A stretch of DNA of 64,000 bases from an uncultured Pontibacter sp. (lineage in GTDB: Bacteria > Bacteroidota > Bacteroidia > Cytophagales > Hymenobacteraceae), in NCBI RefSeq assembly GCF_947495565.1, contig NZ_CANLZM010000011.1:124001-188000 (forward strand), written 5' to 3'. Shown piece after piece: positions 1,114 to 59,225 of the stretch. The position numbers and the translations under genes were made by a program. Positions within the stretch are counted from its first letter, which is position 1. Each line of letters opens with the position of its first letter. Under the pieces are notes generated by a model. It saw only the letters and a program-made list of their open reading frames with translations, was not told where the DNA came from and made no database searches.

Positions 1114-4100
1114 ATGCATAGACTTTTAGCCCTTTTCTCAATTATCTGCCTAAGCTTCTTCTATAGCCTTACGGTTATGGGGCAGGATATCAGCTGGGTA
1201 GAAACCGCTGGAGGTACCAGCAACGACCACGGCCGGGCTGTGCAAGTTGACGGCGCCGGCAATTTGTATGTCTTGGGGTATTTTTCGGCTCCATCCGCTT
1301 GGTTTGGTTCTGCCAGCCTGAGTACTTCCGGCACGGGCACCTATCTTACCAAGTATAGCAACGCCGGCAATTTTCTGTGGGCGCGTAAAATTTCTGACAC
1401 TAACGTGGCAGATGCTTACGGGCTTAAAACCGATGCTGCCGGAAACAGCTACGTGGTCACCACTTTTACGGGCACAACTACCTTAGGCACCGCAACCCTG
1501 ACGAGCAGCGGCGCCAGCGACATCGTTATTGCCAAGTATACTACCAGTGGCGATGTTGTTTGGGCTACTAAAGCAGGCGGCAGTGCAGTAGACAAGGGAA
1601 TAAGCATAACAACAGACGCGGCCGGGAATAGCTACATAACTGGTAGCTTATCAGGAACAGCCGTTTTTGGAAGTACTATCCTGAGCAGTGCTGCCAGCAC
1701 AGATGGCTTTGTGGCTAAACTAAATGCGAACGGCAGCTTTGCCTGGGCGCAAAAAATGGGAGGCAACAGTGCCGATGAAGGTGTGAGCGTTGTGATTGAT
1801 GCCAGCGGTACGGTGTATGTGGCCGGCAACTTTTCAAGTTCTTTCTCTCTTGCAGGTGCAAACCTAGCGTACTCCGGCAATCAGGATATCTTTTTGGTAG
1901 CTTACAGTAACGCAGGTACAGCCCAGTGGGCAAGAAGTGCGGGCGGTAGTTATGCAGACAAAGTAAGCAGCTTAACTATTGATGGAGCTGGTAATTTATA
2001 CTTGGGAGGCCATTTTAACAGGTCAGCAAATTTTGGATCGGTCTCTTTAGCCAGCAGTGGCAATAGCCAGGATATTTTCCTAGCAAAATATACCAATACT
2101 GGCGCAGGCGTATGGGCAACGTCGGCAGGAGGAACAGGCTTGGACGAGCTAAGCATCCTGCATGCAGACACTGATGGAAATTTATACTTGACGGGCAGCT
2201 TTAGCGGAAGGGCTACCATCGGTGGAGCCACACTAAACTCGGTAGGGAGTCTGGACATTTATGCAGCGCACTATGCAAGCAACGGTGCAGCGCAGTGGGC
2301 TATAGGTGCCGGTAGCGCCAGAGACGACCGTGGTTTAGGCATCGTATCAGATGCGGCTCGTAATGTATACGTTACCGGCTATTTCCAGGAAAACACGACT
2401 AATTTCGGTGGTATCGTTATACCGAACAGAGGAGGCGAGGAAATTTTTATCTCAAAATTGATTCCTGCTTTAGTGACCACTAGCGTTACTGCTGGGCCTT
2501 ATTGCGCGGGGCAGGCTGTAATCGTTAACTACAAGGCAACAAGAAACTTCAGGTATTACAGCGCGCAGCTGTCTGATGAAACGGGCAGCTTTGCCAGTCC
2601 AGTGCAGATTGGCACTGTTACGAGCAACAGCACGACAGGTTCGATTGCTGCTACTATCCCTGCCAACACGCCTGCAGGAAGCAAATACCGCATTCGTGTG
2701 GTGGCATCTGCCGCAAACTTAGCTGGCACCGACAACGGCACAGATCTACGTATAAACCAAGTGCCGGCAGCGCCTGCGCTCACAGCCAGCAGCCCTGGCT
2801 TGGGTGGCACGCTTTTCCTTACTGCGTCAGATATACCGGGCGCTACTTACAGCTGGACTGGCCCGAGAGGATTTACCTCAAATTTGCAAAACCCTAGCCG
2901 CTCCGGCATAACTGATGGTGATGTAGGTACTTACACGGCAACCGTCAATGTAAACGGATGCACCAATACAGCCTCTGTTACTATGGCGCTATCAACAGTT
3001 CCGACTTTTGATGTAGACCTGAGAGGACAGCCGAATGGGTACTGGGATTCTCCTTCCGTGAAAAGATCCGGGTCTGTGTGCGGTGACGATAACTGTATTG
3101 TATTTAATGTGATACTGGACCCAGGGGCAGCCGGATTGGAACTGGAGCTTTTGAGCGGTGCAATGCCGGGAGGGGCAATGTACTATAAGCTGAACTGTGG
3201 TACGCAAGCAGCGGTGGGAGAACCAATTTGCGTTGACAACTCAGGTATTATTACCATCAGCATGTGTAAGCCGGGCAATAACGCAAACGCCTTCCGAATT
3301 AAATCAATTTCCCCTTACGACCCTCAGGACGATCTTTCCGTGACAGCAGGGTGCTCTGCCACGCTGAGAGCACCGTTAGCTTTCCATGAGGAGTCTATCA
3401 TATGGAAAGACCTTACCGGCGGGGGAGAGTACCTGAAATACCTGGACTACACCACCGGAAAAAGAGAAGTAACCGTTTCGCCGGACAATAACGCACCAGC
3501 CTATGTAGACTATGAGGTAACAGGCACTTCGATGCAGTCGCCGTGTTCCAGCACACCTTATGCCGATGTTATCAGGGTATACTTTTATCCGCCACCTACC
3601 ATTGCCATCGGTCCTGCGCCTGCTATTATCTGCCCTGCCGGCAGCGGCGTAGCACTTAGCGGCACGGTAACCGGAGGCGACGGTGATTTCAACTATATCT
3701 GGACGGATCCGGCAGGAAAAGTAGTGTCTAACCAGTTGAGCTATACAGCCACGGCAGTAGGAACTTACAAGCTGCAGGTGGTGCCTAAGAACTCCAGCAA
3801 CTGCCGCGAGTTCTCTGCTACAGTAGCGGTTGTGTCTAACCTATCAGCTAATGCCGGGCCTGACCAGCTGGTGTGTTCGCAGCGCCCTGTGCAGCTGGCT
3901 GGTGCCATAACAGCGGCTACCGGCGGCGTGTGGAGTGGGGGCGGAGGAACTTTCAGCCCAAGCAACACGGCGCTGGATGCAGTTTATACTCCAACTGCTG
4001 CCGAAATAGCGGCTGGTTCTGTCAAGTTAACCCTTACCTCAACAGGAAACGGCTCTTGTGCCGCCGTGAAGGATGATGTGCTGCTGACATTCTACCCGTT

Positions 4101-7100
4101 TGATGTAGAACTGGCGGGAACGCCTGTAATCTGTAGCGGAACCTTGGGCACAGTTACGGCCAAAGCACTAGGCGGCAGCGGCACGATCTCCTATAAATGG
4201 AGCTCCGGCGAAACCACAGCCACTATTTTAGACAAATCTGCTGGTACTTACACAGTAACAATTAATGACAGTAAGAGCTGTGCCATCTCAAAATCGTTTA
4301 CGATATCAGAAGTGGCTGGCCCAACTGGTTTTACTGCCAGCGCCCAACCCGAAACCTGCGGCGCCAGCAACGGCAGCGTAACAGTGAGCGGCGTAACTAA
4401 CGGCACGGCTCCATATAAGTATAGCATAGATGGCACGAAATATCAGTCAGCTACAACGTTTTCAGGTTTGGCAGCTGGTAACTATACTATCTATGTGCAG
4501 GACGCTAACGGCTGTACTGTTGCCAAAAATATAACGATCACGAATTTAGCTGGTCCAACTGCTGTTGCTGCCTCTACGCTGGCTACATCTTGCGCTAACA
4601 ACGACGGCAGTATTACAGTCGGGGCCGTGATAGGTGGCGCAGCGCCTTATACTTACGCAATTGACGGCACGAATTTTCAGAACGCTACCAGCTTTGCAGG
4701 CTTGGCCTCTGGAGTTTATACTTTAACGGCGAAGGATAATAACGGCTGTATCATCACAACCACTGTAACAGTCAACCAAAACGTACCGACTAACTTTGCC
4801 AGCACCACGGTAGCTTCTACCTGTGGCGCGAGTAATGCAAGTATACATATTGGTGCAGGAACGGGTGGCACGGCTCCTTATACTTATAGCATAGACGGTA
4901 CTAATTTTCAGGCCTCAGCCACACTTCAAAACCTGAGTGCCGGAACACATACCGTCACGGTAAAAGATGCCAAAGGCTGTACTTTTAGCAAAGCGGTAAC
5001 GGTATCAAATACCGCTGGGCCATCTGCTATAAACTTATCCGGAAGCAACTCAACCTGCGGGGGCGCAAACGCCACTATCGCGGTGAAGGGTGTTACCGGC
5101 GGAACCGCTCCTTATACTTATAGCCTAGACGGTACAACTTTCCAAAGTGGTGCGAGCTTCGGCTCTCTTTTGGCTGGTGAGTATGAAGTGACGGTGAAGG
5201 ATGCCAACGGTTGCGTGGTATCACAGTCCATTTCGTTGGAAGATATTGCTGGTCCGGCGATGTTTACTGCCTCGGCCACTGTCTCAAGCTGTGGGCGTGC
5301 CAACGGAAGTATAACTGTGGGCAGCGTTACCGGCGGCACTTCTCCTTATACTTACAGTTTAGATGGCGCTAATTTCCAAGCGTCTAACACCCTAGCCGGT
5401 CTTTTGGCCGGAGAGCATACCATCACCATAAAAGATGCTAACGCTTGCGTAGTTTCTCAGAAAGTGATACTGGAAAATGTGGCTGGCCCAACAGAGTTGG
5501 AACTGGCAAGCATCGCCTCTACCTGTGGCGCGGCCAACGGCAGCATTACCATCAATAATGTTGCAGGCGGAACCGCTCCTTATACTTACAGTCTGGATGG
5601 TTCAGGTTTCCAAAGCAGCCCTGCATTTACCGGGCTTTTGGCGGGAGCGTATTCCATTACGGTAAAAGACGCCAACGGCTGCAGGTTCTCTGCCGAAACC
5701 ACGGTAGAAAACGTTGCCGGGCCAACTAACCTGACTGCCTCTACTACTTCTGCTGCCTGCGGTACCAGCAACGGCGCAATAAGCATAACCAACGTAAGCG
5801 GCGGAATTGCACCTTATACTTATAGTATAGACGGTACAAATTTTCAGGCTTCTGCTGCCTTTACAGCACTGGCTGCCGGCACACATACTACTAGCGTAAA
5901 AGATGCTAACGGCTGTATTTATGTAAAAGCCATAGAGGTAACAAACCAGGGTGGCCCAAGCACTATAGCGGCAACCACACAGCCGGCCAGCTGCCAGAAC
6001 AACGACGGCAGCATCTCGGTAGGCAACATTACCGGCGGTACGGCCCCTTATACTTACTCCATCAACGGCACGAGCTTTCAGAGCGACAACAGCTTTGCAG
6101 CGTTGGCCTCCGGAGAGTATAATATCACGGTGAAGGATGCCAACGGTTGCGCGGCTACTAAAACCGTGCAGGTGGGCAAGCAGGGTCCGGCAGGTTTTGC
6201 CAGCACAACCCGTGGCGCTGCCTGCGGTGCAGAAAACGGCCAAATCTCGGTAGTGTCTGTGGATGGAGGTGCTGCGCCTTATGCTTATAGTATAAACGAA
6301 GGCAGCTTTCAGAGTTCAGCTGTCTTTACGTCGCTTCCTGCCGGCACTTACAGCATCACCATACAAGATGCCAATGGCTGTACTTTTGCGGATGAGGTGG
6401 AAGTGGCCAATATCGAAGGTCCGGCAGACCTGACAGCCTCAGTCGGCAAGACTACTTGCGGCAACAGCAACGGACAGATTAAAGTTGATGCCGTAATCGG
6501 AGGCACAGCGCCTTATACGTATAGCTTGGATGGCGTGAGTTTTCAGGGTGCCACCACTTTTGCTGGCCTTGCTGCCGGCGAGTACCAGGTAACGGTGAAG
6601 GATGCCAACGGCTGTACAGAGGCAAAAGCAGTAACGGTGGCCAATACCTCAGGCCCGAATGGGTTTACTGTGGCAGGCAAAGCATCTACCTGCGGTGCCG
6701 CTAACGGCGAGGCCATGGTAAGTGCGGTAACGGGTGGCACGGCTCCTTATACCTACAGCAAGGATGGCGCAAACTTCCAGCCGGAGAATACGCTAACAGG
6801 GTTATCCGAAGGTACGCATACTATCACGGTAAAAGATGCCGGCGGCTGTACCTTCACAAAGCAAGTAGTCATTGAAAGTATAACCGGGCCAACGGCCTAC
6901 AACCTGGCTTCTGTTGCTGCAACCTGTGGCGCTGCCAACGGGGCAATTACGGTGAGCGATGTAACAGGCGGAACCGCTCCTTATACCTATGCGCTTAACG
7001 AAGGCGCTTTCCAAACTTCTGCTGCCTTTGCTGAAGTAACTGCCGGCGAGCACACCATTACCGTGAAAGACGCCAACGGCTGCACGCTGTCGCAGCAGGT

Positions 7101-8784
7101 AACGGTAACAGGCATTGCAGGCCCTGCTGCTATAGCGGCCGCTGCTACACCAACTGCCTGCTCGGCTGACAACGGCACTATTACGGTGAGGGATGTAACC
7201 GGCGGCACGGCTCCTTATACTTATAGTTTAGATGAAAAAGAGTACCAGGCAGCGGCAAGCTTCAGCGGACTGGCGGCAGGTGTTTATGACGTATCCGTGA
7301 AAGACGCCAACGGCTGCAGCACCTCAACAACAGTAACAGTAAGCCTGAAAGGCCCGAAAGAGGCAGTGCTTACAGCCGCAGCCGCTACCTGCGGAGAGGA
7401 GAACGGTTCCATCACTATCACGTCCGTAAACGGTGGTACAAAGCCATTTGCTTATGGTATAGATGGCAGTGACTTTCAGTCGGCGGCTACTTTTACTAAC
7501 CTGGCGGCGGGTACCTACACTGTCACTGTTAAAGATGCAGAGGGATGCACGCTGGTGATGACGCAGCAGGTAAGCGGAAGTGGCGGCGCTATCTTTACTG
7601 CCACCGGCACCAGTGCCAGCTGCGGCAGTTCTAATGGCAAAGTTGCGGTTAGCAACGTAAGCGGCGGCCTAAGCCCTCATGCTTATAGTATAAACGGAAC
7701 CACTTTCCAAAGCTCCCCTGAATTTAGAGGCCTGGCCGAAGGCGAGTACCAAGTATGGGTAAAAGACGCTGCCGGTTGCCTAAGCTCCAAAACAGTAGAA
7801 ATCAGCAGCACGCCACCTGTATCCGGCGTTAAAGCCGCTGTTGCTGCGCCAAGCTGCGGCAAGGCTGCCGGCCAGCTAACGATCAGCGAGGTTACTGGCG
7901 GAACGGCTCCTTATACTTACTCCCTAGATGGCACCAATTTTACGAGCGCTACCACTCTGGAAGATGTGGTGCCTGGGACTTTTACACTCACGGTAAAGGA
8001 TGCCAGCGGCTGTACTTACAGCACACAGGTGCAGATGCCAGAGAGCGTCAGCAGCGCCATCGATTACGTGCAGCACCCGAACTGCTTCGGTACTCGTACC
8101 GGCGAGGTCGCCTTGAAGGCAACAGGAGCCAACGACCAGACGCAGTACAGTATTGATGGCGGCAAAACCTTCCAGAAATCAGCTGTCTTCAAAAACCTGG
8201 CGGCAGGCACTTACCAACTCATCACCTCTTTCTCTGCCACCTGCTCAGTTAACGTGGGCACAGTAGAGCTAAAAGAGCCAAGTGAGTTGAAGGTGGAAGT
8301 AACGCCACTTACCAAAGCTGCCGGCCTAGAGAAATCTGGCAGTGCAGCGGTAACGAAAATCAGCGGGGGAGTGGGACCATTTACCTACTCACTCGACGGA
8401 GGCAGCTTCTCTTCTGATTCTGTGTTCACGAACCTGAGCAGCCGCGAATATACCCTAACTATGAAAGACAGCAGAGGCTGTATGGCTACCATCACTTTTG
8501 TAATAGAAGGCCAGGGCGACATCGACATACCGAATGGTTTTACGCCAAACGGTGACGGCATCAACGATAAATGGATGCTGAAAAATGTGGCTAAGCTGTA
8601 CCCTAATTGCAGCGTGACGGTTTACAACCGCTGGGGTAGCGAGGTGTTTGCATCCAGAGGTTACACCACGCCTTGGGATGGCACATTTAAAGGCAAACGA
8701 CTGCCGGATGGTACTTACTACTGTATCATTGAGCTAGGCGACGGTACGGCACCAATCAAGACATCAGTGACCATTATGCGATAA
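1114..8784 (+). CDS. Giant SprB-like surface adhesin with T9SS type B sorting domain
   Basis: 2,556-residue secreted protein. A signal peptide (about residues 1-24, ending VMGQ) is followed by SBBP-type beta-propeller repeats (about 25-450, recurring AGG...D..GN.Y..G.F units), Ig/PKD-like domains (about 455-1060), then roughly 16 full and 2 divergent SprB-type repeats of about 77 residues (about 1068-2467, each with a core like TAPYTYSLDG and a KDANGC stretch). The end (about 2468-2556, with NGFTPNGDGIND, YNRWGSEVF and PDGTYYC) is the gliding-motility-associated type B sorting domain. Family knowledge: SprB of Flavobacterium johnsoniae is the mobile gliding adhesin, exported by T9SS and dependent on a neighbouring SprF. 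The next gene here is PorP/SprF-like, which fits. Whether this cell glides is inference. The start is the first ATG giving a full signal peptide. Confidence 0.93.
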   Translation: MHRLLALFSIICLSFFYSLTVMGQDISWVETAGGTSNDHGRAVQVDGAGNLYVLGYFSAPSAWFGSASLSTSGTGTYLTKYSNAGNFLWARKISDTNVADAYGLKTDAAGNSYVVTTFTGTTTLGTATLTSSGASDIVIAKYTTSGDVVWATKAGGSAVDKGISITTDAAGNSYITGSLSGTAVFGSTILSSAASTDGFVAKLNANGSFAWAQKMGGNSADEGVSVVIDASGTVYVAGNFSSSFSLAGANLAYSGNQDIFLVAYSNAGTAQWARSAGGSYADKVSSLTIDGAGNLYLGGHFNRSANFGSVSLASSGNSQDIFLAKYTNTGAGVWATSAGGTGLDELSILHADTDGNLYLTGSFSGRATIGGATLNSVGSLDIYAAHYASNGAAQWAIGAGSARDDRGLGIVSDAARNVYVTGYFQENTTNFGGIVIPNRGGEEIFISKLIPALVTTSVTAGPYCAGQAVIVNYKATRNFRYYSAQLSDETGSFASPVQIGTVTSNSTTGSIAATIPANTPAGSKYRIRVVASAANLAGTDNGTDLRINQVPAAPALTASSPGLGGTLFLTASDIPGATYSWTGPRGFTSNLQNPSRSGITDGDVGTYTATVNVNGCTNTASVTMALSTVPTFDVDLRGQPNGYWDSPSVKRSGSVCGDDNCIVFNVILDPGAAGLELELLSGAMPGGAMYYKLNCGTQAAVGEPICVDNSGIITISMCKPGNNANAFRIKSISPYDPQDDLSVTAGCSATLRAPLAFHEESIIWKDLTGGGEYLKYLDYTTGKREVTVSPDNNAPAYVDYEVTGTSMQSPCSSTPYADVIRVYFYPPPTIAIGPAPAIICPAGSGVALSGTVTGGDGDFNYIWTDPAGKVVSNQLSYTATAVGTYKLQVVPKNSSNCREFSATVAVVSNLSANAGPDQLVCSQRPVQLAGAITAATGGVWSGGGGTFSPSNTALDAVYTPTAAEIAAGSVKLTLTSTGNGSCAAVKDDVLLTFYPFDVELAGTPVICSGTLGTVTAKALGGSGTISYKWSSGETTATILDKSAGTYTVTINDSKSCAISKSFTISEVAGPTGFTASAQPETCGASNGSVTVSGVTNGTAPYKYSIDGTKYQSATTFSGLAAGNYTIYVQDANGCTVAKNITITNLAGPTAVAASTLATSCANNDGSITVGAVIGGAAPYTYAIDGTNFQNATSFAGLASGVYTLTAKDNNGCIITTTVTVNQNVPTNFASTTVASTCGASNASIHIGAGTGGTAPYTYSIDGTNFQASATLQNLSAGTHTVTVKDAKGCTFSKAVTVSNTAGPSAINLSGSNSTCGGANATIAVKGVTGGTAPYTYSLDGTTFQSGASFGSLLAGEYEVTVKDANGCVVSQSISLEDIAGPAMFTASATVSSCGRANGSITVGSVTGGTSPYTYSLDGANFQASNTLAGLLAGEHTITIKDANACVVSQKVILENVAGPTELELASIASTCGAANGSITINNVAGGTAPYTYSLDGSGFQSSPAFTGLLAGAYSITVKDANGCRFSAETTVENVAGPTNLTASTTSAACGTSNGAISITNVSGGIAPYTYSIDGTNFQASAAFTALAAGTHTTSVKDANGCIYVKAIEVTNQGGPSTIAATTQPASCQNNDGSISVGNITGGTAPYTYSINGTSFQSDNSFAALASGEYNITVKDANGCAATKTVQVGKQGPAGFASTTRGAACGAENGQISVVSVDGGAAPYAYSINEGSFQSSAVFTSLPAGTYSITIQDANGCTFADEVEVANIEGPADLTASVGKTTCGNSNGQIKVDAVIGGTAPYTYSLDGVSFQGATTFAGLAAGEYQVTVKDANGCTEAKAVTVANTSGPNGFTVAGKASTCGAANGEAMVSAVTGGTAPYTYSKDGANFQPENTLTGLSEGTHTITVKDAGGCTFTKQVVIESITGPTAYNLASVAATCGAANGAITVSDVTGGTAPYTYALNEGAFQTSAAFAEVTAGEHTITVKDANGCTLSQQVTVTGIAGPAAIAAAATPTACSADNGTITVRDVTGGTAPYTYSLDEKEYQAAASFSGLAAGVYDVSVKDANGCSTSTTVTVSLKGPKEAVLTAAAATCGEENGSITITSVNGGTKPFAYGIDGSDFQSAATFTNLAAGTYTVTVKDAEGCTLVMTQQVSGSGGAIFTATGTSASCGSSNGKVAVSNVSGGLSPHAYSINGTTFQSSPEFRGLAEGEYQVWVKDAAGCLSSKTVEISSTPPVSGVKAAVAAPSCGKAAGQLTISEVTGGTAPYTYSLDGTNFTSATTLEDVVPGTFTLTVKDASGCTYSTQVQMPESVSSAIDYVQHPNCFGTRTGEVALKATGANDQTQYSIDGGKTFQKSAVFKNLAAGTYQLITSFSATCSVNVGTVELKEPSELKVEVTPLTKAAGLEKSGSAAVTKISGGVGPFTYSLDGGSFSSDSVFTNLSSREYTLTMKDSRGCMATITFVIEGQGDIDIPNGFTPNGDGINDKWMLKNVAKLYPNCSVTVYNRWGSEVFASRGYTTPWDGTFKGKRLPDGTYYCIIELGDGTAPIKTSVTIMR
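4318..8514 (+). repeat. Tandem in-frame DNA repeats (about 231 bp unit) encoding SprB modules
   Basis: About 18 units recur with a spacing of roughly 231 bp; for example the CCTTATACTTA core lies near 4644, 4876 and 5109. The units are diverged but share strongly conserved nucleotide strings around the Tyr-Thr-Tyr-Ser core, usually TAT-ACT-TAT or TAC. This core carries the TATACTT motif that is abundant elsewhere in the window. Such arrays can expand or shrink by recombination, so unit number may differ between strains. Confidence 0.85.
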
Positions 8785-41540: not shown

Positions 41541-42611
41541 ATGATTACGATCGCCATTGGTTTATCCATTGTTCTATTACTGGTTATTCTTTTCCTGCTT
41601 TTCAGGATTGGAACGCTGTCATCAATCTTTAGAGGTTCTTCAGAGCGTGCGGCCGGTACAACAAAAATAAGTAACCGTGTTAACGGTACACTTCTTCTGC
41701 TCTTCCTGATTTTAGGAGGAGCGGCGTTTGCATGGTCTTTTGCAGATGCTTGGGATGAAATGAATCTTCCTTTGGGCTCTGTGCATGGAGAATGGACAGA
41801 TAACCTGTTCTGGACTACTATGATCATCATCGGAATAGTGTTCATTATCACGCAAGTGCTATTATTCTTATATTCATATAAGTATCAGCACCAAGATGAT
41901 AAGCGCGCTTATTACTACCCTCATAACAACAAACTGGAAATTATCTGGACGATGATTCCTGCAGTTGTAATGGCAGTATTAGTTTTCGGCGGCTGGAAAA
42001 CCTGGACAAATATAACTAGTGCAGCTCCTGAAGATGCTGTTGTAGTTGAAGTAATGGGGAAGCAGTTTAACTGGATGGTTAGATACCCAGGTGCTGATGG
42101 CAAGCTTGGTGTCGCAAAACATACATTGATCGATGCCACAAACGAAATGGGTGTTGATTTCAGTGATCCAAATGCTATGGACGACTTTATGCCACGTGAG
42201 ATCCACGTTCCAAAGGGAAAGCCGGTCCTGTTGAAGATCAGATCTAGAGACGTAATCCATAGTGTTTTCATGCCGCACTTCCGCCTTAAAATGGATGCTG
42301 TACCAGGCATGCCAACCAAGTTCTGGTTTGTACCGACTAAAACAACTAACGAGATGGCTAACGAGACAGGAAACCCTGATTTCAAGTATGAGCTAGCTTG
42401 TACTGAAATCTGCGGACGCGGTCACTTTGCGATGCGTTTTATAGTTGTAGTTGATGAGCCAGAGGATTACGAAGCTTGGTTAGCTGATCAGACTCCTTTT
42501 GTAGAGCAGAATCCACAGGTGTTAGCTAAGTTATCAACTAAAGCATCTAAAGAACTTGTAGCTGAAGCACACTCGGAGGAGAAGGCTGAAGTAGTAAAAA
42601 CTGAGTTGTAG
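41541..42611 (+). CDS. coxB: Cytochrome c oxidase subunit II
   Basis: 356 residues. Three hydrophobic segments (about 3-22, 50-69 and 92-111) precede a periplasmic cupredoxin domain with the CuA ligands H240, C287, E289, C291, H295 and M298 (in VIHSVFMPHF and CTEICGRGHFAM). The extra N-terminal helix compared with classical two-helix subunit II is common in Bacteroidota. The C-terminal tail lacks a heme c site, so this is not the caa3 fusion type. Accepts electrons for the oxidase. Starts 24 bp after actF. Confidence 0.95.
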   Translation: MITIAIGLSIVLLLVILFLLFRIGTLSSIFRGSSERAAGTTKISNRVNGTLLLLFLILGGAAFAWSFADAWDEMNLPLGSVHGEWTDNLFWTTMIIIGIVFIITQVLLFLYSYKYQHQDDKRAYYYPHNNKLEIIWTMIPAVVMAVLVFGGWKTWTNITSAAPEDAVVVEVMGKQFNWMVRYPGADGKLGVAKHTLIDATNEMGVDFSDPNAMDDFMPREIHVPKGKPVLLKIRSRDVIHSVFMPHFRLKMDAVPGMPTKFWFVPTKTTNEMANETGNPDFKYELACTEICGRGHFAMRFIVVVDEPEDYEAWLADQTPFVEQNPQVLAKLSTKASKELVAEAHSEEKAEVVKTEL

Positions 42612-42631
42612 CATTTTAATTAATACTGACT

Positions 42632-44458
42632 ATGTCTAGTACAGATATTTCGATTAATAAGGATGTGCATCATGCTCATGAAGAGCATGACCATCATCAT
42701 GATCAAAACTTTTTTGAAAAGTATGTATTTAGCCTAGACCATAAGGTAATTGCTAAGCAATTCCTCTTCATGGGTATTTTCTGGGCTTTTGTAGGTGGAT
42801 TCCTATCTATACTTTTCCGACTCCAGTTAGGCTGGCCAGAAGCTACTTTTACATTTTTAGAGCCTATATTAGGCGGCTGGATTGAAAACGGTAAGCTGAA
42901 TCCAGAATTTTATCTTGCGTTAGTGACAATGCACGGTACCATCATGGTGTTCTTCGTGTTGACAGCAGGATTAAGTGGTACATTCAGTAACTTTCTGATT
43001 CCGCTTCAGCTTGGTGCCCGTGATATGGCATCAGGGTTCATGAACATGCTCTCTTTCTGGATTTTCTTCTTGTCGAGTGTGGTTATGTTTATCTCTCTGT
43101 TCTTAGAAACTGGCCCTGCGGCTGGTGGATGGACAGTGTACCCGCCTTTAAGTGCTCTACCAGAAGCTATTCAAGGTTCTGGAGATGGTATGAGCATGTG
43201 GCTTGTAGCAATGGCTCTTTTCATTGTATCTCAGCTTTTAGGTGGTGTAAATTATATCACGACAATAATCAACCTCCGTACAAGAGGTATGTCCATGACT
43301 AAAATGCCTCTTACAATTTGGGCATTTTTCCTGACAGCTATTTTAGGACTTCTTGCTTTCCCGGTACTGTTCTCTGCAGCTCTTTTGCTGATTTTTGACC
43401 GTAGCTTCGGAACTAGTTTCTTCCTATCAGATATTTTCATTGCCGGACAAGCATTGTCAAACACAGGTGGTAGCCCGATTCTTTTCCAGCACTTGTTCTG
43501 GTTCCTGGGTCACCCAGAGGTATACATTGTAATTATGCCTGCCATGGGTCTAGTGTCTGAAGTAATTGCTACTAACTCGCGTAAGCCAATCTTTGGCTAT
43601 AGAGCAATGATTGGTTCCCTAATAGGTATCTCTGTTCTATCGTTTGTAGTTTGGGCACACCACATGTTCGTAACAGGTATGAATCCTTTCCTAGGATCTG
43701 TATTTATGTTCCTGACATTGATTATTGCTGTGCCTTCTGCAGTTAAAGTGTTTAACTGGATAGCAACTTTGTGGAGAGGTAACATTCGATTCACTACGGC
43801 TATGATGTATGCTATTGGTTTCGTGTCTCTTTTCATCTCAGGTGGTTTAACGGGTATTATCTTAGGTAACTCTGCTCTTGATATCCAGCTACATGATACG
43901 TACTTTGTTGTTGCCCACTTCCACTTAGTAATGGGTGCTGCAGCGTTCTTTGGTATGTTCTGCGGTGTTTACCACTGGTTCCCTAAGATGTTTGGGCGCA
44001 TGCTGGATGAAAAGCTAGGATTTGTACACTTCTGGTTGACATTCATTTCAGTTTACCTTGTGTTTATGCCAATGCACTACATTGGTATCGCAGGTTTCCC
44101 AAGAAGATACTATAACTGGACTGGTTTTGAGACCTTCAACATCTTTACTGATATGAACACTTTCATCAGTATTGCTGCTATACTAGGCTTTACAGCACAG
44201 TTTATATTCCTGTTTAACTTTATCTACAGCATATTTAAAGGTAGAAGAGCTACAGAGAACCCTTGGCATTCAAATACGCTGGAGTGGACTACACCGGTAC
44301 TTCCTGGACACGGTAACTGGCCAGGCCCACTACCAACTGTATACAGATGGCCATATGACTATAGCAAGCCAGGTGCTGCTGAAGATTACATTCCACAAAC
44401 AGTCCCTTATTCGCAGACGCAGTCTTCAAACCTGCCAAACGAGAGAGACTTTGAATAA
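42632..44458 (+). CDS. ctaD: Cytochrome c oxidase subunit I
   Basis: 608 residues, about 12-14 membrane helices. It has the low-spin heme ligand H101 (MHGTIMVFF), the His-Tyr crosslinked pair H294/Y298 (GHPEVY), the CuB histidines in WAHHMFVTG, and H429/H431 (VVAHFHLVMG) for heme a3 and heme a. The N-terminus is His- and Asp-rich (HHAHEEHDHHHDQN). This is the proton-pumping catalytic subunit reducing O2. Starts 20 bp after subunit II. Confidence 0.97.
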   Translation: MSSTDISINKDVHHAHEEHDHHHDQNFFEKYVFSLDHKVIAKQFLFMGIFWAFVGGFLSILFRLQLGWPEATFTFLEPILGGWIENGKLNPEFYLALVTMHGTIMVFFVLTAGLSGTFSNFLIPLQLGARDMASGFMNMLSFWIFFLSSVVMFISLFLETGPAAGGWTVYPPLSALPEAIQGSGDGMSMWLVAMALFIVSQLLGGVNYITTIINLRTRGMSMTKMPLTIWAFFLTAILGLLAFPVLFSAALLLIFDRSFGTSFFLSDIFIAGQALSNTGGSPILFQHLFWFLGHPEVYIVIMPAMGLVSEVIATNSRKPIFGYRAMIGSLIGISVLSFVVWAHHMFVTGMNPFLGSVFMFLTLIIAVPSAVKVFNWIATLWRGNIRFTTAMMYAIGFVSLFISGGLTGIILGNSALDIQLHDTYFVVAHFHLVMGAAAFFGMFCGVYHWFPKMFGRMLDEKLGFVHFWLTFISVYLVFMPMHYIGIAGFPRRYYNWTGFETFNIFTDMNTFISIAAILGFTAQFIFLFNFIYSIFKGRRATENPWHSNTLEWTTPVLPGHGNWPGPLPTVYRWPYDYSKPGAAEDYIPQTVPYSQTQSSNLPNERDFE

Positions 44459-44463
44459 GTAAA

Positions 44464-45540
44464 ATGTTAGTCAAATCTTTTCAGTATAAAAGATTTAGAA
44501 ATATTGGATTACTGACAGTCTTTGCTGTCTACTTTCTAATATTAGTCGGAGGAGTCGTTAGAAGCACTGGGTCAGGCATGGGATGCCCTGACTGGCCTAA
44601 ATGCTTCGGCAGTTGGGTTCCTCCGACTGATGTTAGTCAACTTCCGGACGATTACCTGGAAACTTATAAGCAGAAGCGGATTGAGAAGAATCAGAAACTT
44701 GCTGGTTTTTTAGAAGATCTAGGGTTTGACAAGGTTTCAGAAACTATCTTTTCTCATCCAAGCCAATATATAGAAACGGAATTTAACGTTACTAAAACTT
44801 GGATAGAGTACATCAATCGCCTAGTAGGTGCCTTGATCGGTATATTCATATTTTTAACAGTTGTATATGCTATACCATACCTAAAAGGCGATAAAAGTAT
44901 TTTCTATCTTGCTTTTGCAAGTTTTCTATTAGTTGGTTTTCAGGGGTGGTTAGGTTCAATTGTAGTTTCTACGAACTTACTGCCAGTAACAATTACAATA
45001 CACATGGCTTTGGCTCTTGTTATTGTCGCCATGTTACAATACGCAGTCGCCCGGGCTAATAAAGAGATTGAGAAAGCTGACTATAAGTCTTCTCCTAAAA
45101 TTTACTTATCCCTTTGGGTACTTGGAATATTAACCTTTATTCAAATACTCATCGGAACACAGGTTCGTGAAGAGGTAGACCTAATTTCAACTATGTTGGG
45201 AGGTGTTGATAGAGAGCTTTGGGTTGATAGATTGGGGTTAAGTTTTTACATACATCGTTCTTACTCTATATTTTTACTTGCCTTGCACATTTATGTAGCG
45301 CTACTGTTGTATAAACTGCAAAACCGAAAGCTGAATAGATTAACAAGTATTATGTTAATTTTAGTAGGTGCAGAAATAGTAATCGGAGTTATGATGGCAT
45401 ATTTTGCTATCCCTCCAATGCTTCAACCACTACACCTTACTTTTGCCGCATTATTGTTTGGTGTACAGTTTCAGCTTCTGATTATTTACAACTATGCCTC
45501 TAGCAAGGCTAAAACATCGCGAGTAGTAATTCATAATTGA
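44464..45540 (+). CDS. ctaA: Heme A synthase (CtaA/Cox15)
   Basis: 358 residues, eight predicted membrane helices, with the paired cysteines in GCPDWPKC (C41 and C47) and conserved histidines such as EYINRLVGALIG, TIHMALALV and HRSYSIFLLALH. It oxidises the methyl group of heme O to the formyl of heme A, needed by the oxidase encoded upstream. Starts 5 bp after ctaD; its stop shares one base with the next start (TGATG). Confidence 0.95.
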   Translation: MLVKSFQYKRFRNIGLLTVFAVYFLILVGGVVRSTGSGMGCPDWPKCFGSWVPPTDVSQLPDDYLETYKQKRIEKNQKLAGFLEDLGFDKVSETIFSHPSQYIETEFNVTKTWIEYINRLVGALIGIFIFLTVVYAIPYLKGDKSIFYLAFASFLLVGFQGWLGSIVVSTNLLPVTITIHMALALVIVAMLQYAVARANKEIEKADYKSSPKIYLSLWVLGILTFIQILIGTQVREEVDLISTMLGGVDRELWVDRLGLSFYIHRSYSIFLLALHIYVALLLYKLQNRKLNRLTSIMLILVGAEIVIGVMMAYFAIPPMLQPLHLTFAALLFGVQFQLLIIYNYASSKAKTSRVVIHN

Positions 45541-46436
45541 TGTACACTGGTAATTCTGAGATACTACTGCAGTTTTCTACTATGGCTAACAAAGCAACAG
45601 CATATTTTCAACTTTTAAAGTTCCGATTAAGTTTAACTGTTGCTTTCTCTAGTGCCATTGGCTTTATATTAGGTTTCCCGAACGCGAGGTGGTATGATAT
45701 CGCTTTGGTTATGATGGGAGGCATGTTAGTTACGGGTGCTGCCAATATAATTAATCAGATTCTGGAAAAGGATTTGGATAAGCATATGAAACGTACAGCC
45801 AAGCGCCCATTACCTACAGGTAGAATTACTGTAGCAGAAGCTGTGGTATTTTGTATTGCACTGGCTGTAGCAGGTACCGTGCTGCTGAGCATTTACTTTA
45901 ACCCGCTAACTGCTGCCCTGTCTTTGCTGTCCCTAGTACTTTATGGTTTCATCTATACTCCGCTAAAACGTATAAACCCAATATGCGTGTTTGTAGGGGC
46001 AATTCCAGGAGCTATGCCTCCACTAATTGGTTGGGTTGCGGCTACAGGTGCTATTGAGATTGAAGCTGTCATATTATTTGGAATTCAATTTTTCTGGCAA
46101 TTTCCTCATTTTTGGGCAATAGCATGGGTGCTAGATGATGACTATAAAAAGGCTGGTTTTAAGATGCTGCCAATGGCTGGTGGTAAAAACCTTAAAACTG
46201 CTATCCAGATAATGAGTTATACATTAGTATTGATACCCATGAGCCTTTTACCTCTGCAATTTGGTATGACAGGTATAACATCAGCTATGATTGCCGTAAT
46301 TTGTGGAGTCTTGTTCTTGGCTCAAACCTTTTACCTGATGCGTACATGCTCTAAAAAAGCAGCGATGAGTATCATGTTTGGTTCATTTTTATATTTGCCG
46401 ATAGTGCAGATAGCCTTTGTTTTAGATAAAATTTAG
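45540..46436 (+). CDS. cyoE: Heme O synthase (protoheme IX farnesyltransferase)
   Basis: 298 residues from ATG 45540, which overlaps the ctaA stop (TGATG); an ATG at 45582 would give the shorter MANKATAYFQLLKFRLSL, which is also compatible. The UbiA-family motif NQILEKDLDKHMKRTAKRPLPTG is present, with the second Asp-rich region in DDDYKKAGFKMLP. It attaches a farnesyl group to heme B to make heme O, the substrate of ctaA. Membrane-embedded with about nine helices. Confidence 0.95.
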   Translation: MYTGNSEILLQFSTMANKATAYFQLLKFRLSLTVAFSSAIGFILGFPNARWYDIALVMMGGMLVTGAANIINQILEKDLDKHMKRTAKRPLPTGRITVAEAVVFCIALAVAGTVLLSIYFNPLTAALSLLSLVLYGFIYTPLKRINPICVFVGAIPGAMPPLIGWVAATGAIEIEAVILFGIQFFWQFPHFWAIAWVLDDDYKKAGFKMLPMAGGKNLKTAIQIMSYTLVLIPMSLLPLQFGMTGITSAMIAVICGVLFLAQTFYLMRTCSKKAAMSIMFGSFLYLPIVQIAFVLDKI

Positions 46437-46444
46437 GAATAGCC

Positions 46445-47029
46445 ATGGCTAATTTTCCAATAGAAGATCAAAACAGCCGTACTGGGGTTCACCCATTAAA
46501 ATTTTCGCTGTGGTTGATTATTATAAGTATTATTATGATGTTTGCAGCTTTTACAAGCGCTTACATTGTAAGAAGAGAAGAAGGGAACTGGTTAGAATTT
46601 AATTTACCTAACATTCTGCTGATAAATACCTTCATCATTGTATTAAGCTCTGTTTCTATGCAATTGGCTCATAATGCAGCAAAGCATAACAACATGGGTA
46701 AGTTAAAGCTAATGCTTCTTATAACTTTAGGTCTGGGCACTGCTTTTCTGGTAGGGCAGTGGTATGGTTGGGCTGATTTAGTGCAGAATAATATCTATTT
46801 CGGAGGCACTGGCAGTAACCCTTCCGGCTCATTTCTGTATGTTCTGACAGGAGTCCATGGATTTCACCTTGTAACAGGGTTAATCTTTGTGCTGATTGTT
46901 TTCATGAGTAGTCTAAAGTTTAAGATACATTCTAAAAATATGCTGCGTATACAATTGTGCACGGTTTACTGGCATTTTTTAGGCGGACTTTGGCTATATT
47001 TGTACATATTCTTAAGAATAAATCACTAA
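46445..47029 (+). CDS. Cytochrome c oxidase subunit III family protein (first copy)
   Basis: 194 residues, about five membrane helices, with GVHGFHLVTGLIFVLIVF and VYWHFLGGLWLYLY, the conserved subunit III signature. It is one of two adjacent subunit III-family genes; the other (47053) is longer. Having two neighbouring subunit III-type genes is common in Bacteroidota oxidase clusters. It starts 8 bp after cyoE. Confidence 0.88.
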   Translation: MANFPIEDQNSRTGVHPLKFSLWLIIISIIMMFAAFTSAYIVRREEGNWLEFNLPNILLINTFIIVLSSVSMQLAHNAAKHNNMGKLKLMLLITLGLGTAFLVGQWYGWADLVQNNIYFGGTGSNPSGSFLYVLTGVHGFHLVTGLIFVLIVFMSSLKFKIHSKNMLRIQLCTVYWHFLGGLWLYLYIFLRINH

Positions 47030-56600: not shown

Positions 56601-57110
56601 GGTCGGCTGAACCTGAACGAGGTGCTGAGCTCGCAGATGACCTTGGGTTATAATGTGCGGGAGAATCAGTCAAACTTTCTGAGCTCAAAAAACTTTAAAA
56701 TTCAGGCGCGGGAGCTGTCGCCGGAGCTGGCTTACCAGCCAAATACGAAGCTGCGCTTTACGGGTAAGTACCAGCTGTCGCTGAAACAGGATGTGCTGGA
56801 GATTTCCGAAGTAGAGCAGGAGGGCACTTTTCATGAGCTGGGGCTGGAAACAAAGCTGAGCCAGGTGGGCAAACGAACCATCACAGGCAATATTAAATAC
56901 GTGAACATTGATTTTGATGGGCTTGAGACTTCTTATGTTGGCTACGAAATTCTGAACGCCCTTCGCCCCGGCAACAACATGACCTGGTCTTTAGTGATGC
57001 AGCAGCGCCTGAGTAACGGCCTCAATATATCCCTGAACTATGACGGCCGCAAAGCTAATGGAGTGGGGGCAGTGCATACCGGACGTACGCAGGTATCGGT
57101 GTTGTTTTAA
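53625..57110 (+). CDS. Large predicted outer-membrane protein, unknown function
   Basis: 1,161 residues from ATG 53625, which begins a signal peptide (MSSKSLGVLLLWLLCLPLLAQ) and overlaps the kinase gene by 11 bp; the frame stays open upstream inside the kinase gene, but that extension has no signal peptide. The body has many alternating aromatic/hydrophobic strands, a domain around NTQNVFVNSALNLQLDGKL and QPEGNTQQLQEFDKVY, and a final strand ending VLF, typical of an outer-membrane barrel. I do not recognise a named family. Its overlap with the kinase suggests the kinase monitors, or shares control with, this envelope protein. Confidence 0.75.
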   Translation: MSSKSLGVLLLWLLCLPLLAQTPLSNKRCKWLPVNSFPQQLDSLTLVPSSISLQHPKKEQFSYDYNFTFNEFKFTRFPSPDSVAVDTLGTMRALPDSVLVCFRVMPLNLTQPVFKRDVARLDINTNQDRFYKEDISTKEEIFRTPGLNKTGSISRGVSFGNTQNVFVNSALNLQLDGKLTDDISITAAITDQNIPFQPEGNTQQLQEFDKVYITLQHKRWQLTAGDVVLKSKPSYFMQFYKNVQGGAFSYISGKDAERQGVTTVAASVSKGKFASQTIQPQEGVLGPYRLRGPNNELFIIVLANSERVFLDGVLLQRGYDYDYVIDYNQAEITFTTRHVITKNSRLRVDFEYSDQNYSRGIYHLNHYQNLGKLKVYGNYYNESDNPNSLLNLNLNSEQKRLLASIGDSLNQAISSGADSVAYDPGQVLYARIDTSYNNGQNLDRIYVYSTSPEDAHYSVSFTNVGSGNGDYVAINGAVNGRAYRWVAPVNGVRQGSYAPVRVLPTPRKKQLITFGSSYELQKSISFFAEAAASEHDLNRFSDRDAGDDNGKGLRLGYVVQDKLIPFMGKYKLNSSLNYEYTDEFFEPIDRYRPIEFDRDWSLTNTEKTEDHIFNFSVGAAQDAANLVNYRISRRYRQEQLDGVQHHLDLMKRFGKLEFRNRFFILNNTQQERESQWYRGDMNVEYAIGKVSPGYTYSFDKNRLTALNTDSVVGSAQYFEQHQFYLESGDTTKTKFRVDYSHRRDRFATGYGTMGNLEVGQTYNAIVQTRLNQEQTLAVQATYRKLDVRNNKDEETIQSRVDYNGTFADGAFRSELSYATGTGRELKRIYVFQETLPGQGTHYLREGGDPNNLNDYLEAQTVDQRRYIKIYLPTDEYVNAYTNTFTYRLTTATPRSWRSEPGIKAKLSNFSMLSFVSINKKTTDSNLSQRFNPFSEDVEDAFLISLVKQLRHTVYFNRSSPKYGMEYTVQQNEQKQLLTNGTETRNVLSHVLIGRLNLNEVLSSQMTLGYNVRENQSNFLSSKNFKIQARELSPELAYQPNTKLRFTGKYQLSLKQDVLEISEVEQEGTFHELGLETKLSQVGKRTITGNIKYVNIDFDGLETSYVGYEILNALRPGNNMTWSLVMQQRLSNGLNISLNYDGRKANGVGAVHTGRTQVSVLF

Positions 57111-57571
57111 GGCTTTATCTTCTCAATTTTACGATGCGTTTCTAAGTATAAAGGCAGCGCAGCGGAACCATACCATGGGTAAAGCTCTACATCAAAAATC
57201 TTAGCCTTAACAGCCGGGTCGGTCCCTACCATTTCCTGAGCTTCCTCTACTGTCTTGGCATCAAGTATAAAAATGCCTCGGTAAGCTTTGTCGTTTTTGC
57301 CAAGCGGGCCAGCTACAATTAATTTCCCCTCGTTTGCCAGCCTGTTAATGTTCTCCATGTGGCCCCGGAAGTACTCGTTCAGCTTATTTTTGTCGGTGGT
57401 GGTGTTGGAGCCGGTTTTAAGTATAACCAGCACATACTGCTTCATGCCGTAGTCATCGGCACCGAGCGAGTCGGCGAGGGCTTTGCTGTAGCTCAGGTTC
57501 TGTGTTTGCGCCTGGGCATGGGCAGCAAAGCAACCCAAACAAAGTATGGTAAGGGCGAAAAACTTTTTCAT
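57107..57571 (-). CDS. Secreted YciI-like domain protein
   Basis: 154 residues with a signal peptide (about 1-20, ending AHAQ) and a YCII-like ferredoxin-fold domain (about 45-140, MKQYVLVILKTG..., then HMENINRLANEGKLIVAGPL and EEAQEMVGTDPAVKAKIFDVELYPW). The family is loosely linked to small-molecule metabolism; here the signal peptide is unusual. Its stop overlaps that of the converging outer-membrane gene by 4 bp. The next gene (57581) lies upstream on the same strand, 9 bp away, so the two are probably one unit. Confidence 0.85.
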   Translation of the reverse strand: MKKFFALTILCLGCFAAHAQAQTQNLSYSKALADSLGADDYGMKQYVLVILKTGSNTTTDKNKLNEYFRGHMENINRLANEGKLIVAGPLGKNDKAYRGIFILDAKTVEEAQEMVGTDPAVKAKIFDVELYPWYGSAALPLYLETHRKIEKIKP

Positions 57572-57580
57572 AAGTATAAA

Positions 57581-58135
57581 TTAGCCGGCGTTTTGGTAAG
57601 CAGTTTTTAACCAGTTGATAACTTCCGGGGTGATTTGATCTTCTGAGGTAAGTATGATTTTGTGTGAGCACATGGCGTTTGCTTTGTCTATAGATTCCAG
57701 AATACCTTGTGCTCCTTGGTTTTTGAGGTTGAGGCCGACTTCAAAGCGGGTTTTGGTGGCAGCCTGAAGTATGGCAAACTGCTTTTTGCGGCGCAAGCTC
57801 ACGTAAGCGTTTTTAGGGGCAAGTTCCACATCCTCTCCAAACTTCTGAATCTCTGATAGCAGTGTTTCATACAAAGGTTTAAAATGCTCCTTGCCCTTGT
57901 ACTGTTTTGCGATCAGGTCATCCTTGTTCTCTGCAGACCCGGCATCCGAGCCTTTTGATTTGTGCGCCACCAAGTTTGCAAAGCCATGGGTAAAGCCGTG
58001 CTCTTCTTTCAGAAACTTAATAATCTCGCCATGCTTGGCAAAGCTTTTACTGCGCACCAGTTCTACCCATTGCTCCAGCGTTTTGCCTGTATTCTTGTGC
58101 AGGTTATCAATCATGGTTTTTTCTGCCTGATCCAT
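57581..58135 (-). CDS. DUF4287 / DUF5655 domain protein
   Basis: 184 residues, no signal peptide. The N-terminal half (EKTMIDNLHKNTGKTLEQWVELV, then GEIIKFLKEEHGFTHGFANLVAHKSKG) is DUF4287-like, and the C-terminal half (KEHFKPLYETLLSEIQKFG, then AYVSLRRKKQFAILQAATKTRFEVGLNL) is DUF5655-like. Both are cytoplasmic domains of unknown role, often found together. It is the upstream gene of a two-gene unit with the YciI-like gene (9-bp gap). Confidence 0.85.
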   Translation of the reverse strand: MDQAEKTMIDNLHKNTGKTLEQWVELVRSKSFAKHGEIIKFLKEEHGFTHGFANLVAHKSKGSDAGSAENKDDLIAKQYKGKEHFKPLYETLLSEIQKFGEDVELAPKNAYVSLRRKKQFAILQAATKTRFEVGLNLKNQGAQGILESIDKANAMCSHKIILTSEDQITPEVINWLKTAYQNAG

Positions 58136-58183
58136 CTCTTTTATATTTTAAGTATGAAAACCTTAAGATACAGCATCTAACGA

Positions 58184-58220
58184 AAAGAGCAAGTATAGCA
58201 CCTAGCTATACTTGCTCTTT
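58184..58220 (-). terminator. Terminator of hldD whose stem is two AAGTATA motif copies
   Basis: Perfect 16-bp stem AAAGAGCAAGTATAGC/GCTATACTTGCTCTTT (58184-58199 with 58205-58220) and a 5-nt loop. On the reverse strand the tail is TTTTCGTT. Its central part is an exact inverted pair of AAGTATA (58191-58197) and TATACTT (58207-58213). Confidence 0.8.
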
Positions 58221-58259: not shown

Positions 58260-59225
58260 TTAGTAATAGCTCCCCTGCATCAGGTAGTTCTGTACGTAAT
58301 CTTTTACGCCTTCTTCTAAAGTATAAAATGGCCTGTCGTAACCAATGGAGCGCAACTTGCTCATGTTGGCCTCGGTAAAGTATTGGTAGTTGTCGCGCAG
58401 GTTCTCCGGCGTATCCATAAAGTCGATGTTCGCTTCCACACCCATGGCATCGAAGGTGTTGAGCGTCAGTGCCATAAAAGTGCGAGCCTCTCCAGAGCCG
58501 AGGTTGTAGATACCCGAGTTTTTGCGGTGATGCATCAGGAACATACACACCTCTATTACATCCTTTACATACACAAAATCGCGCATCTGCTCACCGTCGG
58601 CGTACTCCGGGTTGTGCGAGCGGAACAGCTTCATGCTGCCTTTTTCCTTTACCTGGTTATAAGCATGGAAAATAACCGAAGCCATTTTGCCTTTGTGGTA
58701 CTCGTTTGGCCCGTACACGTTAAAGAACTTCAGGCCGGCCCAGAAGAATGGCTTAGCTGTTTGCTGCAGCGCCCAGATATCGAAATCGTTTTTAGACTCG
58801 CCGTAAGGGTTAAGGGGCTTCAGCAGCGGAATAGTCTCCTCATTATCATCATAGCCGAGGGTACCGGAGCCGTAGGTGGCCGCAGAAGAAGCATAAACCA
58901 GCGGAATCTGATATTCGGCGCAGGCGTTCCACATCTGTTTAGAGTAGTTCAGGTTCAGGAGGTCGAACACATCCTTGTTAAACTCAGTGGTATCGGTGCG
59001 GGCACCCAGGTGGAAGACAAACTCTACTTCTTCGTAGTGATCGTTCAGCCAGTCGAAAAAGTTCTCGCGGTCTACGTACTCTTTTATTACTTTACCTTTC
59101 AGGTTATCTTCTTTTTTGGCGACAGAAAAATTATCTACCACCACTATATCGTTGAAATTGTCCTGGTTCAGCCTGCTTACGAGGCAACTGGCAATAAAGC
59201 CTGCGGCACCTGTTACTACTATCAT
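58260..59225 (-). CDS. hldD: ADP-L-glycero-D-manno-heptose 6-epimerase
   Basis: 321-residue extended SDR enzyme. NAD(P)-binding GAAGFIAS (6-13), catalytic S114 (YASSAATYG), Y141 and K145 in YGESK, and the family string NVYGPNEYHKGKMASV. It converts ADP-D-glycero- to ADP-L-glycero-D-manno-heptose, a precursor for the inner core of lipopolysaccharide. Cytoplasmic. Followed by its own terminator (58184-58220). Confidence 0.95.
   Translation of the reverse strand: MIVVTGAAGFIASCLVSRLNQDNFNDIVVVDNFSVAKKEDNLKGKVIKEYVDRENFFDWLNDHYEEVEFVFHLGARTDTTEFNKDVFDLLNLNYSKQMWNACAEYQIPLVYASSAATYGSGTLGYDDNEETIPLLKPLNPYGESKNDFDIWALQQTAKPFFWAGLKFFNVYGPNEYHKGKMASVIFHAYNQVKEKGSMKLFRSHNPEYADGEQMRDFVYVKDVIEVCMFLMHHRKNSGIYNLGSGEARTFMALTLNTFDAMGVEANIDFMDTPENLRDNYQYFTEANMSKLRSIGYDRPFYTLEEGVKDYVQNYLMQGSYY

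Follow-up and report, generated by a model that had tools for sequence, protein, structure and literature searches.

Downstream of an hldD-like gene in a Pontibacter genome (4.52 Mb in 44 contigs), a hairpin stem contains the heptamer AAGTATA facing its own reverse complement. Two questions follow from this arrangement: whether the hairpin is the transcription terminator of hldD, and what a facing pair inside it says about AAGTATA itself, which had been suspected of being an uptake-like motif. Positions given without a contig refer to the window, the whole 64,000-nt stretch of contig that was analyzed.

The hairpin downstream of hldD

The gene (58260–59225, minus strand) encodes an NAD-dependent epimerase (Epimerase match, E = 6e-39) whose closest relatives, at 94% identity, are the HldD proteins of P. 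mangrovi, P. chinhatensis, and P. anaerobius. A perfect inverted repeat with a 16-bp stem and a 5-nt loop occupies 58184–58220, and the edge of its stem lies 39 nt past the hldD stop codon at 58260. On the plus strand the left arm reads AAAGAGCAAGTATAGC (58184–58199) and the right arm GCTATACTTGCTCTTT (58205–58220); in the hldD transcript these become the 3' arm and the 5' arm of the stem, respectively, with the loop between them at 58200–58204. All three elements are assigned to the minus strand from pairing and folding, the left arm also from covariation of the outer stem in relatives. By motif search, one AAGTATA sits in the stem on the plus strand (58191–58197) and the facing copy on the minus strand (58207–58213, TATACTT on the plus strand), so that the preliminary description of AAGTATA opposite its reverse complement in a 16-bp stem was accurate in both position and pairing. 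Read in the direction of hldD, a terminator-like run of four T's, GCTCTTTTCG, marks the 3' edge of the hairpin (58183–58186, minus strand). The next gene on the same strand, with DUF4287 and DUF5655 domain matches (57581–58135), starts after the hairpin, at 58135. Two further plus-strand copies of AAGTATA were found by motif search close by, one within the 3' end of hldD (58319–58325) and one in the gap between genes 57107–57571 and 57581–58135 (57572–57578).

At this position the hldD-strand RNA is far more stably folded than its shuffled versions (z = -5.1; none of 200 shuffles was as stable). Seven relatives have a hairpin after hldD built around the same facing motif pair, either exact or with one change, and the outer stems of these hairpins differ (AAAGAGC, AGGGC, AAGGTC, GGC, AATGCTG, and AAAGCGC). 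Across six distinct stems, 94% of pairs are standard and four pairs are altered on both sides. With loops excluded and the alignment built around the motif, the covariation score was 0.371. Shuffles gave 0.169, none of 500 reaching the observed score, and slid partners gave no more than 0.097. Because the outer stem changes with compensation in relatives, we conclude that this is a real hairpin.

Judged as an intrinsic terminator, the element has the stem, the position, and the covariation, and a T-run of only 4–5 nt, which recurs at the same edge in all hairpin-bearing relatives except one (L070). In the likeliest reading, it terminates hldD transcription. The short T-run, together with a generic terminator scan that did not list this hairpin, could instead point to an mRNA-stabilizing or attenuating stem in which the motif occurs by chance. 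However, the T4–T5 run at the same edge in most relatives, and the compensation of the outer stem around a retained motif pair, speak against this, and we consider it unlikely. What the preliminary description called the hldD terminator thus stands as a real, recurrent hairpin after the stop codon, and, given its short T-run and its absence from the scan, as a probable rather than a certain terminator.

Inverted pairs of AAGTATA across the genome

DNA uptake sequences (DUS) of the Neisseriaceae occur as inverted pairs at terminators (PMC3630211), and one report puts the share of inverted repeats among such sequences at about 10% (PMC1939737, where the figure is cited as unpublished). The facing pair after hldD had been taken, on this analogy, to add weight to an uptake motif, but the genome-wide counts lend this argument little strength. 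Inverted AAGTATA pairs with gaps of 0–25 nt number 95, compared to about 94 expected from random placement of the 3975 and 4120 copies on the two strands, and are fewer than everted pairs at the same gaps (122). Close inverted pairs that follow stop codons were also at expectation (13 observed, 13.1 expected). With pairs of this spacing at chance level, we dropped the close inverted pair as a functional unit. Gene-context counts, which cover 1.264 Mb (28%) of the genome with genes called by a simple script, gave a similar picture for the tally of inverted pairs after stop codons that had been proposed as a check: of 27 such pairs, 18 are found in the first 100 nt past a stop, where the local density of single copies predicts 17.3. 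The single copies themselves peak directly after stops, where a TAA contributes the motif's opening bases, with a second peak on the opposite strand at about +60.

At wider gaps of 20–60 nt, intergenic pairs showed a modest excess of the inverted arrangement (52 inverted versus 30 everted and 35 direct). Among intergenic stems of at least 10 bp, 20 of 222 carry the motif in both arms, at 1.65 times the flank density, and in other species that use AAGTATA the motif is present in 17 of 131 long hairpins, at ~2.7 times the flank density. The species that use the related words described below had the motif in 0 of 51 hairpins (AGGTATA) and 1 of 19 hairpins (AACTATA), and motif-free genomes in 0 of 56. 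The association of motif and hairpin is therefore real but small, and confined to the AAGTATA dialect. Because the hairpins of AGGTATA species carry no motif, the link to terminators seems incidental, a consequence of how readily AAGTATAAA...TTTATACTT fits into A/T-flanked terminators. On whether inverted pairs are frequent in terminators, as in known uptake sequences, the evidence is mixed: where the word is AAGTATA, long hairpins have the motif in modest excess, whereas short gaps show no excess and AGGTATA species have no such hairpins.

A different possibility is that the inverted pair is itself the functional unit, the motif having spread within terminator or REP-like hairpin elements. 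The 20 stems with a motif in both arms would fit such spread, as would the retention of the pair in the hldD hairpin of several species and the presence of one stem, AATGCTGAAGTATAA, at two loci in two species (identical at C2:11647–11686 of this genome and after hldD in P. oryzae, L072). Yet only about 40 of the 2389 motif copies in the 1.264 Mb, less than 2%, sit in long hairpin stems, and two-thirds of copies are coding and most are single. Given also the chance-level frequency of close inverted pairs and the empty hairpins of AGGTATA species, we give spread by hairpin elements almost no credence.

A genome-wide word and its dialects

AAGTATA is strongly over-represented, with 3975 + 4120 = 8095 copies genome-wide compared to 217 + 219 = 436 for the reversed control, and 121 copies in the window compared to 9.8 expected, a number that 0 of 100 shuffles reached. 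The core of the motif is sharp and 7 bp long, its A flanks are soft, and no context extends beyond them; its character is that of a DNA-level word, present in all six coding frames and on both strands. Its density is 1.41/kb in coding and 4.17/kb in intergenic DNA, each ~14 times the order-1 expectation. Of the words one mismatch away, AAGTATG is enriched 5.8-fold and the others 0.7- to 2.9-fold. No strong orientation bias was found, either between the whole-genome strand counts or in 40-kb blocks of constant GC skew, where the counts are near-equal. Spacing is clustered (CV 1.33). The word is depleted in a prophage (C2:124000–160000, L028–L029, with PHROGs matches to a portal, head protease, tape measure, and integrase), where its density is 0.5/kb, compared to 1.89/kb overall, as measured on this one island. 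It is also sparse (0.37/kb) in a cluster of many small genes resembling a ribosomal-protein operon, and occurs throughout the remaining sequence.

Several local features of composition and spacing were observed alongside these counts. The low-GC (0.33) island that follows the prophage (C2:160000–188000) is motif-poor too, and the cytochrome oxidase genes COX1, COX2, and CtaA (window 41541–47000) lie in a low-GC, motif-poor stretch. Copies exactly 234 bp apart at 4648–6055, inside an ORF of 2556 aa (1114–8784), probably reflect repetition within the encoded protein rather than separate gains. The palindrome TCCGGA is also over-represented in the window (56 versus 13 expected).

Pontibacter genomes split into those with some 1000–3500 copies of AAGTATAA per strand and those with 93–614; in other genera of the family its excess is at most ~2- to 2.5-fold. 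The idea that half of the genus had simply lost the motif was dropped once word counts revealed dialects. Most of the low-count genomes are not motif-free: among named species, the P. lucknowensis clade uses AGGTATA(G) and the P. burrus/fetidus clade AACTATA(G), and whole-genome counts assigned 12 genomes to a AGGTATAG dialect (1397–2713 per strand) and five to a AACTATAG dialect (3115–4160 per strand). Some genomes are mixed, such as G033 with 2215/2261 copies of the A word and 1004/998 of the C word, and G027 with 1983/1928 and 1307/1310, respectively; the mixed genomes group with the AACTATA genomes in a ComEC tree. About 11 genomes lack a strong signal for any of the three words. One of these (G042; L165, L176–L182) has TATATAG enriched fivefold, with 138 copies versus 26 expected in 160 kb, and another (G037; L163, L183–L187) has a relaxed GGTATA word, each a possible further dialect. 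In a separate case, at G020:C1:1944098–1946626, AGGTATAG recurs every ~66 bp over 2.5 kb in what looks like a CRISPR or other tandem array with the word inside the repeat.

The dialects, when tested, followed the phylogeny, and they occupy shared sites. AAGTATA sites are exactly conserved in about 46–64% of comparisons among AAGTATA species, compared to 18–34% for control 7-mers. At these same sites, AGGTATA species have AGGTATA in 17.4% of cases and AACTATA in 0.4%, and AACTATA species have AACTATA in 8.9% and AGGTATA in 1.1%. The share of AACTATA in AACTATA species is likewise 8.9% at AGGTATA sites, despite the two-base difference between these words. The word at a conserved site has thus switched between dialects, each clade often bearing its own word at the shared place. 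In low-count species, 55% of residual AAGTATA copies fall on AAGTATA sites of the clade to which the present genome belongs, compared to 16% for controls, and P. ruber, which is basal in the genus in a seven-gene tree, has AAGTATA. The residual copies are consistent with descent from an AAGTATA ancestor.

Transformation genes and the uptake-sequence reading

In the Bacteroidota, a transformation screen in R. anatipestifer yielded ComEC, DprA, ComF, RecA, an outer-membrane protein, a surface protein, and a helix-hairpin-helix protein, of which ComEC, DprA, and the helix-hairpin-helix protein are required for transformation there (PMC8459023). The same ComEC, DprA, and helix-hairpin-helix (ComEA-like) Pfam families are present in 50 of 50 Pontibacter genomes; the sections of the R. 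anatipestifer report that were compared describe no uptake sequence. In the genomes read, from A, G, and C species that are not independent samples, the transformation genes are dense in the word of the host's own dialect: 3.65/kb in comEC versus 1.16/kb in other genes of the same loci, 6.01/kb versus 1.74/kb for comEA-like, and 2.63/kb versus 1.45/kb for dprA, the last test having been fixed before the dprA sequences were obtained. Among 717 coding sequences of at least 600 bp in this genome, motif enrichment is strongest in the comEA-like gene, which also ranks first in motif among 32 orthologous genes. Because its conservation is average among those 32, low conservation does not explain its enrichment. 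The motif density of the transformation genes could have a cause other than uptake.

Two genomes suggest a joint loss of transformation, as read from their gene sequences. Stops or frame changes interrupt each of comEC, comEA-like, and dprA in G022 (L171, L208, L230) and G009 (L175, L219, L231); elsewhere among the genomes read, all three genes are open, save for a frame break in comEC of G018. Of 11 genomes, G022 is the one with the most near-miss motifs per exact motif (2.67). Its retention of shared sites (0.58) is low but within the range of intact genomes (G020, 0.46; G032, 0.38), and G022 was set aside as a clean natural experiment, and is suggestive only, as its retention is no outlier. 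G009, with its genes broken, still has a high AGGTATAG count. Loss of comEC was rejected as the cause of motif absence, since motif-free genomes keep intact comEC and dprA, and competence genes alone therefore do not predict the motif.

A candidate receptor was sought in several places. The receptor predicted for the uptake signal sequence (USS) of Pasteurellaceae belongs to the type IV minor pilins (PMC12616744). A search of the 50 Pontibacter genomes for the ATPase of type IV pili or type II secretion gave no full-length hit; T2SSE matches were partial (~60 residues, 19–26 bits), with three of the 50 above the cut-off. Because this search gave no full-length ATPase, the known type of DUS receptor, the minor pilin ComP, is unlikely in Pontibacter. 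A DUF5689 surface protein, proposed by analogy with R. anatipestifer, was rejected, as it occurs in 22 of 50 genomes and does not track motif presence, and so was the DUF5689 copy of this genome, which lies in a SusC/SusD locus beside glycerol-phosphate-like genes. The neighborhood of comEC held nothing suggestive of a receptor gene, the outer-membrane and surface partners known from R. anatipestifer were not identified in Pontibacter, and these inquiries yielded no sequence-specific receptor.

Two explanations that do not involve DNA uptake have to be weighed against these results. The word could be the binding site of an abundant chromosomal protein (a nucleoid-associated, segregation, recombination, or Chi-like factor), kept by selection on the chromosome. 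Such a site would occur genome-wide and be conserved, and a change in the specificity of the protein could even produce coordinated switching. However, unlike Chi or KOPS, the Pontibacter word has no strong strand or replication-linked orientation bias, its spacing is clustered rather than regular, and it is missing from whole clades that are otherwise normal; nor does a chromosomal-protein site predict its concentration in comEC, comEA-like, and dprA. We regard this explanation as rather improbable. The other explanation draws on HIP1, a highly iterated palindromic word of cyanobacteria that occurs in coding and intergenic DNA and is not known to have dialects, and holds that methylation, repair, or mutational bias enriched the word independently of uptake. 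The density of the Pontibacter word (~1 per 560 bp) and its neutral-looking placement in both coding and intergenic DNA are similar in kind to HIP1. But AAGTATA is non-palindromic, its one-mismatch neighbors other than AAGTATG are mostly near background, and mutational bias poorly explains either three dialects at the same sites or a 2- to 3.5-fold density in transformation genes, and we find an origin of this kind very unlikely.

We think it probable, instead, that AAGTATA is a DNA-uptake-sequence-like signal spread by natural transformation, and that the hairpin is the hldD terminator, invaded by this word on both arms. In such a system, DNA bearing AAGTATA would be preferentially taken up or recombined during transformation, and copies would spread by biased gene conversion into permissive places such as intergenic DNA, TAA stops, the A/T tracts of terminators, and tolerant codons. 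Both arms of the hldD terminator stem would have come to be occupied by the dominant word of the genome, AAGTATA(A/G). A change in the recognizing protein would let the whole genome drift to a new dialect, such as AGGTATA or AACTATA, and with recognition lost the word would decay. Preferential uptake, its receptor, and termination at the hairpin are inferred in this account. The suspicion of an uptake-like motif in the preliminary description is thus well supported, mostly by dialects, conserved sites, prophage depletion, and transformation-gene density, which lay outside that description; its argument from the inverted pair is weak. With less assurance, we lean toward a broader proposal, that Pontibacter has an independently evolved, pilus-free uptake-sequence system with at least three genome-wide dialects, in which a surface receptor other than a type IV pilin would read a 7–8 bp word, and in which switches and losses have been repeated and the mixed genomes are in transition.

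The hldD hairpin on its own is ordinary; what matters is the motif, whose system of dialects is of high interest. The two facing copies in the terminator would be explained by a word that invades any A/T-flanked site able to tolerate it. In the literature we compared, uptake sequences have been described only for the Neisseriaceae and Pasteurellaceae, both with type IV pili, and a system in Pontibacter, if true, would be a third, unrelated case, in the Bacteroidota and with several dialects within one genus. Such a case would serve as a replicate for studying the origin, spread, and switching of these words, and would offer a handle on the outer-membrane DNA receptor of the Bacteroidota. The mixed A + C genomes and the motif-free genomes make the dialect switch directly testable. 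Our literature searches, limited in coverage and not proof of novelty, returned no paper joining Pontibacter with an uptake sequence and none joining DNA uptake sequences, Bacteroidota, and natural transformation.

Among known systems, the USS of Haemophilus and other Pasteurellaceae resembles the Pontibacter word in having a short core (AAGTGCGGT in PMC1939737), many coding copies, and variant forms between lineages, and differs in the word itself, in belonging to a distant group, and in its predicted type IV minor-pilin receptor, the machinery of which was not found in Pontibacter. The likeness to the Neisseriaceae DUS is closer. DUS dialects are one or a few bases apart, follow the core-genome tree, and may coexist in one genome (PMC3630211), and DUS copies are better conserved than the sequence around them and occupy permissive regions (PMC2397512). 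Both are short, non-palindromic words that occur thousands of times, on both strands and inside as well as between genes, with conserved sites, one-base dialects that follow phylogeny, genomes with two dialects, some inverted pairs at terminators or terminator-like hairpins, and fewer copies in foreign DNA. Unlike the DUS, which is 10–12 bp long, the Pontibacter word is 7–8 bp, belongs to the Bacteroidota, comes without a detected type IV pilus ATPase, and is enriched in hairpin stems only in its AAGTATA dialect and with few of its copies. Apart from the pilus and the weight of inverted pairs, the Pontibacter word thus agrees with the DUS in all genomic features that were tested.
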